Assembly: GCA_016213625.1 (NCBI GenBank)
Contig: JACQZZ010000056.1
Location: 1-64,000 of the forward strand
Length of the DNA stretch: 64,000 nucleotides
Source of the DNA: Actinomycetota bacterium
GTDB lineage: Bacteria > Actinomycetota > Acidimicrobiia > Acidimicrobiales > Ilumatobacteraceae
Direction of reading: 5' to 3'
Part shown: in pieces, positions 26,503-32,316 of the stretch
Numbering within the stretch: the stretch's first letter is position 1
How the letters are laid out: each line of letters opens with the position of its first letter
Translations under genes and position numbers: made by a program
Notes under the pieces: model-generated
Seen by the model: the letters and a program-made list of their open reading frames with translations, nothing else
The model's database searches: none
What the model was told of the DNA's origin: nothing

Positions 26503-28350
26503 GTGACCCGCCGATCGCGGGCGATGTCGTGGGGAGCACTGGCCGTCGGGCTCGCCTCCGTGCTCGCCTCCTCCCACCACGCCACCGCCACCACCACCGA
26601 CGAGGAGGCGCTGGCCCAACGCCACGCACCGGTCATCGCGGTGCAGGAGCACGCCGAGGAATGCGGCGACGGCGAACCGTTCGTTCCCGCCGCCGTCGAG
26701 TCCGTGCTCGACCAGGAGGGGGTGGTGCTGCGTGACGCGAACGGTGTCGTGCTCGTCGATCGGCCCACGGCGGCATATCTGTTCACGGCACCGGCCGACA
26801 GCCACCTCGACCTCCCTGGCAACGCGCTGTCCCCCGGCTGCGACTACGAGCAGTGGTTCCACCGGACGAGCGGCGATGCCACCCCCACGGTGTACGCCCG
26901 GGTCGCCACCGACACCGAGGAGCCCGGTCGGCTGGTGGTCCAGTACTGGGTGTTCTGGGTCTACAACGACTGGAACGACCGTCACGAGGGCGACTGGGAG
27001 ATGCTGCAGGTGGCCTTCGATGCCGCTGATGCCACCGAGGCGCTCGGCGAAGCACCGGTGGAGGTGGCGGTCGCTCAGCACGAAGGCAGCGAGCGCCGGC
27101 CGTGGGATCGGGTGCAACTCGACGGCGATCACCCGGTGGTGCACCCCGCCACGGGCTCGCACGCGACGTACTACACGGCCGATCGGTGGTTCGGAAAGAG
27201 CGCGGCGTCGGGGTTCGGCTGCGACGACACACGCGCACCGAGTACCCGCATCGACCCTGCAGTGGTGATGCTGCCCGAACAGGCGAGCGGCGCCGACGAC
27301 CCGTTCGCGTGGCTGCAGTTCGAGGGTCATTGGGGCGAGCAGCAACCGACCTTCAACAACGGCCCCACTGGCCCGATCACCAAGGACCAATGGGCGCACC
27401 CTGTGGTGTGGATGGAGGAGGAAGGCCGCACGTCGAGCATCAGCCTCCCGCCCACCGGCTCGAAGGTCACCGACTTCTTCTGCACGGCCAGCAGCCGGGG
27501 TTCACTGCTCTTCATCCGCTTCCTCGATCAACCGTGGCTGGTCGCCATCGTCGCCGTCATCGTGATCGGTCTCATCGTGTTCGGCATCCGCCGCACGCTC
27601 TGGTCACCGGACCACCCGCTGCCACTGGTGGAGCAACGGCATGCCGGCCAGATCCTCCGCGGCGCCGCCCGGCTCCTCTGGGAGCACCGGCGACGATTCG
27701 TCCCCATCAGCATGCTGGTGCTGGTCGGTGGCGCGGCCGCCGCGCTCGCGCAGGTGCTCGTGTTGGCCATCCCTTCGGTCGACGCGTTCGGCGACATCGT
27801 CGGCAAGGACAACACGCTCAGCGTCACCATCGCCCTGCTCGCCGGAGCGCTGGTGTCAGTGCCGGTCGCGCTCGTCACCGTGTCGGCGGCCATCACCCTC
27901 GCCGACGACATCGACCGAGGCAGCACCGAGGGGCACGTCGTTCGGCGCGGACTGCGAGGTCCCGCGCTGCGCGCCGCTGCCGCGCTGTTGGGCGCGACGC
28001 TGCTCGCAGCCCTCATCCCCATCGTCGGCCTGGTCCTGGTGGTGCTGTGGGCGGTCGCACCGCGAGCGGCGGACGTGGACCGTCAAGGCGTGCGCGCCGC
28101 GCTCCGTCGTTCGCGCCACCTCACGAAGGGCAAGCGCACGAAGACCACGCTGGTGGTGTTCGTCACCGCGGTGGTGGCGTTGTTGACCGGCCCGTTCGTG
28201 GGCACCATCGTGCTGTTGTTGTCGAGCGCGTCGTTCGGCATCGTCAACCTCGTCGCCGCGCTGTTCAGTTCGGTGCTGCTGCCGTGGCTGGCAGTCGTGC
28301 TCACCCTGTTGCACGGCGACCTGACGGCCGCTCGGCAATCGGCTGCGTGA
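26503..28350 (+). CDS. Vps62-like extracellular domain fused to a multi-helix membrane domain
   Basis: A 615-aa protein with three parts. Residues 1-30 are a signal peptide (LAVGLASVLASSHHATA). Residues 35-335 form an exported domain with QYWVFWVYNDWNDRHEGDWEML, a YYTADRWFGK segment and FEGHWGEQQP---NGPTGP, the pattern of Vps62/DUF946 proteins known from fungi and plants. From about 340 a helix (WLVAIVAVIVIGLIVFGI) leads to a region with five or six helices and a DAFGDIVGKDNT loop, resembling the membrane part of glycerophosphodiester phosphodiesterase-type proteins (YckC/GlpQ-linked). Function unknown. Its TGA is directly followed by the convergent PPOX gene stop, with no spare base. Confidence 0.7.
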   Translation: MTRRSRAMSWGALAVGLASVLASSHHATATTTDEEALAQRHAPVIAVQEHAEECGDGEPFVPAAVESVLDQEGVVLRDANGVVLVDRPTAAYLFTAPADSHLDLPGNALSPGCDYEQWFHRTSGDATPTVYARVATDTEEPGRLVVQYWVFWVYNDWNDRHEGDWEMLQVAFDAADATEALGEAPVEVAVAQHEGSERRPWDRVQLDGDHPVVHPATGSHATYYTADRWFGKSAASGFGCDDTRAPSTRIDPAVVMLPEQASGADDPFAWLQFEGHWGEQQPTFNNGPTGPITKDQWAHPVVWMEEEGRTSSISLPPTGSKVTDFFCTASSRGSLLFIRFLDQPWLVAIVAVIVIGLIVFGIRRTLWSPDHPLPLVEQRHAGQILRGAARLLWEHRRRFVPISMLVLVGGAAAALAQVLVLAIPSVDAFGDIVGKDNTLSVTIALLAGALVSVPVALVTVSAAITLADDIDRGSTEGHVVRRGLRGPALRAAAALLGATLLAALIPIVGLVLVVLWAVAPRAADVDRQGVRAALRRSRHLTKGKRTKTTLVVFVTAVVALLTGPFVGTIVLLLSSASFGIVNLVAALFSSVLLPWLAVVLTLLHGDLTAARQSAA

Positions 28351-28737
28351 TCAGCCGAACGTCATCCGGATGGCGCACTCGGCGGGGTCGGGCTTCTTCA
28401 CCAGACCGCGGAAGAACGCTCCCACGGCCATGAACTTCGTGAACACCGAGTGCTTGCGGCGGATGGCGTCGCGCACGGGCAGCGCGTCGGGGCCGATGAG
28501 CACCTCGGCCGTCGCGTCCACGATCTCGCTGCCCTCGCGGACGCGGCCGCGCATGTCGCACGGCTGCAGCGTGACCTTCGGGTTGTTGCGGATGCGCTTC
28601 ACCTTGCCCGAGTCGGCTTCGGTGGTGAACCCTGCCGAGCCGTCGGGCAGCGCCACGATCCACACCGGCGTGCCCACCCCCTCACCGGACTTCCTGAACG
28701 TGGTGAGCAACACATAGGTCTCATCGGTGATCGCCAT
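28351..28737 (-). CDS. PPOX/F420-type split beta-barrel flavoprotein
   Basis: A 128-aa protein of the pyridoxamine-phosphate-oxidase-like fold used in actinobacteria for F420- or FMN-dependent redox. The sequence opens MAITDETYVLLTTFRKSG with the strand motif GTPVWIVALPDGSAGF, then KVKRIRNNPKVTLQPCDMRGR, typical of the F420-dependent PPOX class (TIGR03666-like). Start ATG 28737 follows TAGCGT by 7 nt on the minus strand, a leaderless signal. An open frame continuing to 31128 is antisense to the P-type ATPase and is not coding. The substrate is unknown. Confidence 0.88.
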   Translation of the reverse strand: MAITDETYVLLTTFRKSGEGVGTPVWIVALPDGSAGFTTEADSGKVKRIRNNPKVTLQPCDMRGRVREGSEIVDATAEVLIGPDALPVRDAIRRKHSVFTKFMAVGAFFRGLVKKPDPAECAIRMTFG

Positions 28738-28744
28738 GGTTCGA

Positions 28745-28763
28745 ACGCTAACGCCAGTAACGT
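28745..28763. promoter_or_regulatory. Divergent leaderless -10 pair for PPOX and P-type ATPase genes
   Basis: TAGCGT on the minus strand (28750-28745) lies 7 nt before ATG 28737, and TAACGT on the plus strand (28758-28763) lies 7 nt before ATG 28771. The two starts are only 33 bp apart, so the promoters are back to back. Confidence 0.55.
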
Positions 28764-28770
28764 CCAGCGG

Positions 28771-31154
<2,384 letters not shown>

Positions 31155-31158
<4 letters not shown>

Positions 31159-31622
31159 GCCACCTGTACGACCTCACCATGCGGTCCATCACGGGCGAGG
31201 AGGTACACCTGTCGGACTATCGCGGTCAGGTCGTCCTCATCGTCAACGTCGCGAGTCTTTGAGGCCTCACGCCTCAGTACGCAGGTCTGCGTACGCTCCA
31301 CGACGAACTCCAACCGCAGGGCTTCAGTGTCCTCGCGTTTCCGTGCAACCAGTTCGGTGCACAGGAACCCGGCACCGATGAGGAGATCCTCGAGTTCGCG
31401 ACATCGAAGTTCGGCGTCACGTTCCCGATGTTCTCCAAGATCGAAGTGAACGGCGACGGTGCCTGCGATCTCTACCAATGGCTGCGCGAGCAGACCGGCG
31501 GCGCCGACATCTCGTGGAACTTCGAGAAGTTCCTCATCGACCGCGACGGCAACGTGGCCGAACGGCTGAACCCGATGGTCACGCCGGAAGAGATCGCGCC
31601 GAAGGCAGCGGAACTGCTCTGA
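31155..31622 (+). CDS. Selenocysteine-containing glutathione peroxidase (in-frame UGA at codon 36)
   Basis: Complete 155-residue glutathione peroxidase if UGA at 31260-31262 is read as selenocysteine. The frame runs without a break from MSHLYDLTMRSITGEEV through VNVASL-U-GLTPQYAGL to AAELL and TGA 31620-31622. Sec36 occupies the peroxidatic position of the family motif NVAS-x-(U/C)-G-T-Q-Y. The other tetrad members are present: Gln70 (NQFGAQEPG), Trp121 and Asn122 (WNFEKFLID). The resolving Cys of thioredoxin-dependent forms is replaced by Thr83 (FATSKF). The ATPase stop overlaps the start (ATGA). A SECIS-like hairpin follows the UGA. Ordinary gene callers will truncate this gene or report only 31428-31622. 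Confidence 0.88.
31260..31294 (+). promoter_or_regulatory. Bacterial SECIS element for selenocysteine insertion
   Basis: Directly after the UGA, GTACGCA-GGTC-TGCGTAC (31277-31294) forms a perfect 7-bp stem, with the loop starting 21 nt after the UGA. AGGTCU flanked by GC matches the apical loop of the E. coli fdhF SECIS. A second small hairpin, TGAGGC-CTCAC-GCCTCA (31260-31276), includes the UGA itself. The codons in this stretch (GCA, GGT, CGT) are not the G/C-ending ones favoured by the gene, as expected if RNA structure constrains them. SelB binds such loops in bacteria. Confidence 0.85.
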
Positions 31623-31689
31623 CCCACCGATACTCTGCGGCCGCACGGCTTCCCCCGGATCTGCACCATCTGCGTCCGGAGGTCTCTCC

Positions 31690-32211
31690 ATGCCGTCGTT
31701 GCCCCGTCTTCGACTTCCCCGTCGTCGTCCACCCGCGCTCCGTCTGCTGAGCGCCGACCGCTCCTGGTACCTGTTCGCGCCCGATCCCGACACCCCGATG
31801 GTGGTGGCCGGCTTCGGCGACGCGGCGCTGCTGGCCACCGAGTTGGTGTCGCTGCCGCTCCAGCACGAAGCACTCGTGCTGCTCGACGAGCAGCGGCAGG
31901 TCACCTCCATCCTGCTCGACCCGCCGGCCGAGGTGGGGCTGTTCGTCGGGCACTGCCCGCCACCGGGCGCGGAGGCACCGTTCTGCCAGACCCTGTCGGT
32001 GGTGCTGCAGGAGCGAGTGCCCACTGGCCCGCCGCTGGCCGCCGACCGCGAGGGCTACCTCGCGTTCCGCCGCATCCACATGGCGCAGGGCCTGTTGCTG
32101 CTCGATGTGTTGCTCACCGACGGCGACACGGTTCGCAGCCTGGCCATCGGCTGCGACCCCGATCCGATCTGGTTCGATGAGTTCCTGCCGGCGATGACGC
32201 CGCCCGACTGA
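31690..32211 (+). CDS. Hypothetical protein, 173 aa
   Basis: Unrecognised soluble protein. It begins with a basic, Arg/Pro-rich stretch (PRLRLPRRRPPALR), followed by SADRSWYLFAPDPDTPMVVAGF, a leucine-rich middle (HEALVLLDEQRQVTSILLDPP) and a PEP-acidic tail ending MTPPD. The segment LLLLDVLLTDGD is hydrophobic but short of a membrane helix. GGAGG at 31678-31682 gives a Shine-Dalgarno with 7-nt spacing to ATG 31690, and TACTCT (31631-31636) is a candidate -10. The 67-bp gap after the peroxidase gene holds only these. A JAB/RadC-like strand order (ALVLLDEQRQV) is conceivable but the metal histidines are missing. Confidence 0.6.
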   Translation: MPSLPRLRLPRRRPPALRLLSADRSWYLFAPDPDTPMVVAGFGDAALLATELVSLPLQHEALVLLDEQRQVTSILLDPPAEVGLFVGHCPPPGAEAPFCQTLSVVLQERVPTGPPLAADREGYLAFRRIHMAQGLLLLDVLLTDGDTVRSLAIGCDPDPIWFDEFLPAMTPPD

Positions 32212-32316
32212 GGAACCCTCGAGCAATTGTGACACGTGTCTCCACCACACTTGACACAGCTCGGGACCAAAGGCCCATCACGAACAGTGTCGGGCGGATC
32301 ACACTGGGTAAAGGAA

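Follow-up and report, generated by a model that had tools for sequence, protein, structure and literature searches.

Does the TGA that interrupts a glutathione peroxidase (GPx) reading frame in an actinobacterial genome encode selenocysteine (Sec) and, if it does, how would the resulting enzyme be recycled? We examined this in a stretch of 64,000 nucleotides (the window) taken from contig JACQZZ010000056.1 of an Ilumatobacteraceae assembly, here called G000, which comprises 4.51 Mb in 117 contigs and is 92% complete.

The interrupted frame and its predicted product

The gene and the codons that bear on its activity are as follows.

31155–31622, forward strand: glutathione-peroxidase-type gene, predicted to contain Sec; 155 amino acids, terminal TGA inside the coordinates; based on the frame, Pfam and an AlphaFold model
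31260–31262, forward strand: in-frame TGA, predicted Sec36, the peroxidatic residue; present at this codon in all 57 distinct Sec homologues
31362–31364, forward strand: codon of Gln70, catalytic tetrad; invariant in the alignment of homologues
31398–31400, forward strand: codon of Ala82, at the resolving-Cys position of Cys-GPx proteins; from the alignment of Sec and Cys rows
31515–31520, forward strand: codons of Trp121 and Asn122, catalytic tetrad; from the alignment of homologues

The frame starts with the ATG at 31155, meets the TGA at codon 36 and is then open up to a second TGA at 31620–31622. Its translation matched the Pfam family GSHPx (PF00255; 144.7 bits, E-value 9.3e-43) over residues 4–111, that is, across the internal TGA, and a sequence search with the 155-residue product found solved GPx structures, the best at 5e-42. 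An AlphaFold2 model, calculated from an alignment of 28 relatives with Sec entered as Cys, reached a pLDDT of 91.9, and Foldseek placed poplar GPX5, a GPx from Staphylococcus, one from Schistosoma and human GPX7/GPX4 among the top matches to this model, with TM scores of about 0.9. The predicted model has, in other words, the GPX fold.

Codon 36 aligned with the peroxidatic Cys of homologues and, as Gln70, Trp121 and Asn122 are all kept, the Sec/Cys-Gln-Trp-Asn tetrad is complete. The resolving Cys of the EFC motif, which marks the 2-Cys, thioredoxin-type enzymes, is missing and Ala82 is found instead. Every Sec row (58/58) had Ala or Val at this position, and 68 of the 69 Cys rows had Cys there (the counts include a row each from a Schistosoma and a yeast structure), the single exception by sequence being the gene L054, described below. 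A preliminary description of the window had already read the frame in this way, with a TGA at the peroxidatic codon and no further stop before the end, an intact Gln70, Trp121 and Asn122 and no resolving Cys; the alignment with Sec- and Cys-GPx proteins that it proposed as a check agreed on each point. Judging from its sequence, 31155–31622 is a genuine gene for a selenoprotein, laid out as a 1-Sec peroxidase.

Conservation of the TGA and of a SECIS hairpin

A TGA within such a frame could also have arisen by sequencing error, or as a nonsense mutation in a decaying Cys-GPx gene, and the fragmented, incomplete state of the assembly, whose other GPx gene does hold a frameshift, speaks for this origin. 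However, the same TGA was present at the same codon in 57 distinct homologues from Acidimicrobiales, Gammaproteobacteria and Myxococcota. Because it recurs without change in dozens of independent assemblies it is no sequencing error, which settles the test suggested in the preliminary description, namely whether TGC or TGT would replace the TGA. Among close relatives, dN/dS downstream of the TGA was about 0.10–0.35 at dS values of 0.2–1.1; by this measure the frame after the TGA is under purifying selection, which is not expected of a decaying gene. Moreover, Cys homologues have the resolving Cys and no hairpin of the kind described below. Given that TGA and hairpin are conserved together across phyla, we rejected an origin by error or decay as exceedingly improbable.

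Within the 149 related genomes, 40 carried a GPx gene with exactly one TGA, among them 10 of the 15 genomes of the genus. Named records of such genes came from Acidimicrobiales, including Ilumatobacteraceae, and also from Gammaproteobacteria, one Alphaproteobacteria bin and one Myxococcales bin, and a phylum-wide sample of 396 genomes yielded six TGA genes, all in Acidimicrobiales. The earlier view that Sec-GPx proteins are uncommon in bacteria, and more so in actinobacteria, has therefore to be qualified for this lineage, and the bacterial proteins are moreover an already published family.

A candidate signal for Sec insertion lies just downstream of the TGA.

31277–31294, forward strand: predicted bacterial SECIS hairpin, GTACGCA-GGTC-TGCGTAC; based on fold, stem conservation and compensatory changes

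The hairpin has a 7-bp stem (GTACGCA/TGCGTAC) and an apical loop, GGTC, which begins 22 nt after the TGA, the spacing of a bacterial SECIS; it follows the TGA immediately and has a G within the first two loop bases. Its codons CAG TAC GCA GGT CTG CGT were near-frozen in the 57 distinct Sec genes, with zero synonymous difference among six close relatives; adjacent codons in the Sec genes, and the same six codons in 68 Cys homologues, varied synonymously. The outer six stem pairs were kept in 56/57 Sec genes and in 0/68 Cys genes, and two stem pairs had changed on both sides, one from C-G to U-A and the other from G-C to A-U. In the genes L065, L069, L073 and L094, the G-C to A-U change is accompanied by Ala-to-Thr and Arg-to-Cys replacements in the protein; the RNA pair would therefore have been kept at the cost of two amino acids and, as read from these substitutions, SECIS RNA constrains the Sec-GPx protein sequence in these four genes. 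Folded as a single sequence, the hairpin had a z-score of -2.4, and the seven pairs arose in 3.3% of 20,000 synonymous recodings of the window's Sec-GPx, so that a hairpin in one sequence is weak evidence by itself and the case is carried by conservation. Viral contigs contained no match to a strict SECIS pattern.

A tree built by a quick method after masking of the Sec/Cys and resolving-Cys columns placed all bacterial Sec genes, L054 included, in one group (SH-aLRT 99). Cys genes fell outside it, among them the Cys-GPx genes from Sec-carrying genomes and the sampled Acidimicrobiales Cys-GPx genes. This suggests a single bacterial Sec lineage, hairpin included, which may have been carried between phyla. 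L054 (2262–2729, Gammaproteobacteria), inside the Sec clade, has TGT for TGA, a broken stem and a retained Ala at the resolving position and, on these features, is a natural Sec-to-Cys reversion with the SECIS lost. The second GPx gene of G000 itself is of the Cys type (L020, C81:128441–128847) and is split by a frameshift near its FPCNQF motif, either a lesion or an assembly error.

Selenocysteine machinery and the meaning of the UGA

All four genes for which the preliminary description had advised a search, selA, selB, selC and selD, were found in the source assembly. SelB scored 277–296 bits, over the curated cut-off, and has the SelB winged-helix domain; SelA scored 392 bits, with selA directly upstream of selB and overlapping it, and SelD scored 313 bits. 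The tRNA-Sec (selC), identified with Infernal at 66 bits on a contig other than the window's, has the anticodon loop CUUCAAA and thus a UCA anticodon. ARAGORN found no tRNA-Sec within the window or beside selAB, and Rfam models at gathering scores had no match within the window. Across the related genomes, a TGA-containing GPx gene was present in 39 of 117 with selB or selC and in 1 of 32 without (Fisher p 2.4e-4, calculated with relatedness ignored). In genome G048, which is 89% complete, the TGA gene is present and selB and selC were not over cut-off; both searched congeners have both.

Suppression of the UGA as Trp or Cys would likewise be expected to yield a full-length protein, and the residue inserted is invisible to sequence. 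Nevertheless, this reading has against it the complete Sec machinery, the SECIS hairpin at the right spacing, the presence in the genome of another known selenoprotein family and the use of UGA as a stop elsewhere in the window, and we consider it highly improbable. UGA is an ordinary stop nearby, since the upstream ATPase gene and the Sec-GPx gene both end in TGA, which argues against a genome-wide reassignment. The second selenoprotein gene (L166, C107:79044–80114) belongs to the ResA-like WAxxUGC family (NF041054, 494 bits) and has one in-frame TGA. A 7-bp hairpin may form 13 nt after this TGA, with a G at loop position 2 and a spacing nearly as in Sec-GPx; the stem is not the minimum-energy fold of a longer stretch.

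In bacteria, Sec insertion and termination compete at UGA. It is therefore conceivable that termination is the purpose of this codon, a 35-residue peptide being made and the remainder seldom translated, but downstream of the TGA the catalytic residues do not vary and the frame is under the purifying selection noted above, which leaves this alternative with next to no probability. Our preferred reading, to which we assign a probability of about 96%, is a GPX-fold peroxidase that would acquire Sec at residue 36 through SelB, tRNA-Sec and the hairpin and would be recycled by an external thiol.

Proposed mechanism and comparison with known peroxidases

The Sec-GPx gene lies between two neighbours.

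28450–31158, forward strand: P-type cation ATPase ORF; gene order shared by relatives, exact start codon not certain
31690–32211, forward strand: conserved 173-aa protein with no Pfam or NCBIfam match; downstream neighbour in relatives

The ATPase stop overlaps the Sec-GPx start (ATGA, 31155–31158), and about a dozen relatives have these three genes in the same order (ATPase, Sec-GPx, 173-aa protein), so the ATPase and Sec-GPx are likely to be translationally coupled. No terminator-like site was found in 28300–32300.

In the mechanism that we propose, SelB and Sec-tRNA(UCA), guided by the downstream hairpin, would decode the UGA as Sec. By analogy with the family, Sec36 together with Gln70, Trp121 and Asn122 would reduce H2O2 or organic hydroperoxides and become a selenenic acid, which would be reduced by an external thiol, given that the resolving Cys is gone. 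Gene content makes mycothiol with mycoredoxin, or thioredoxin, a more likely reductant than self-made glutathione. MshD was over cut-off in G000, a MshC-like gene scored 407 bits, below the curated cut-off of 485 and with a MshC score exceeding its CysS score, and GshB (TIGR01380) had no match in this 92% complete assembly. The organism thus appears to make mycothiol and not glutathione, in line with the preliminary remark that actinobacteria generally use the former. These three results make a Sec-dependent mycothiol or redoxin peroxidase the interesting reading, and we tentatively put forward, at somewhat less than even odds, its more specific form: a GPX-family selenoenzyme in which the resolving Cys has been lost and mycothiol (with mycoredoxin) takes the place of glutathione in recycling. 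With Sec-GPx it can be studied how a Sec peroxidase is recycled where glutathione synthesis appears to be missing.

The kind of gene is already known. In 2006 only one bacterial Sec-GPx was counted, that of Treponema denticola (PMC1794560); a survey of the GOS metagenome then listed 40 bacterial sequences (PMC2398784), and a 2026 inventory includes a bacterial GPX-like selenoprotein family (PMC13188914). Since bacterial Sec-GPx is thus published, from T. denticola and ocean metagenomes, the window's gene is a further member, common in its order. The published family (PF00255; T. denticola WP_010957027.1, compared here by its description) likewise has a peroxidatic Sec, with a UGA followed by a bacterial SECIS, and its UxxT motif is also found in the window's protein (UGLT). 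The published examples come from a spirochaete and from ocean reads without assignment, ours from Acidimicrobiales, where the gene lies in a P-type ATPase operon. The open-access papers searched held nothing relevant on selenoproteins of Acidimicrobiia or Ilumatobacter and did not mention this Sec-GPx lineage, which is no proof that the lineage is unreported. Sec-GPx would escape gene callers that treat UGA only as a stop.

Vertebrate GPX4 (PDB 6elw, 6hn3), about 44% identical to the window's protein, shares with it the Sec-Gln-Trp-Asn tetrad, the short GPX4-type length and the lack of a resolving Cys, but differs in having a eukaryotic SECIS in the 3' UTR and glutathione as reductant. Actinobacterial Cys-GPx enzymes, in turn, act as mycothiol peroxidases, and mycoredoxin or thioredoxin recycles them (PMC9241694). 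Mpx of Corynebacterium glutamicum and CosP of Streptomyces (PMC9241694) belong to the same family, phylum and mycothiol background as the window's Sec-GPx; Mpx, however, has a catalytic Cys and three Cys residues, in contrast to a Sec and no resolving Cys. With the present gene, bacterial Sec-GPx gains a well-supported lineage and a clean natural comparison between Sec without a resolving Cys and Cys with one, often both in one genome, which further includes one Sec-to-Cys reversion without SECIS.
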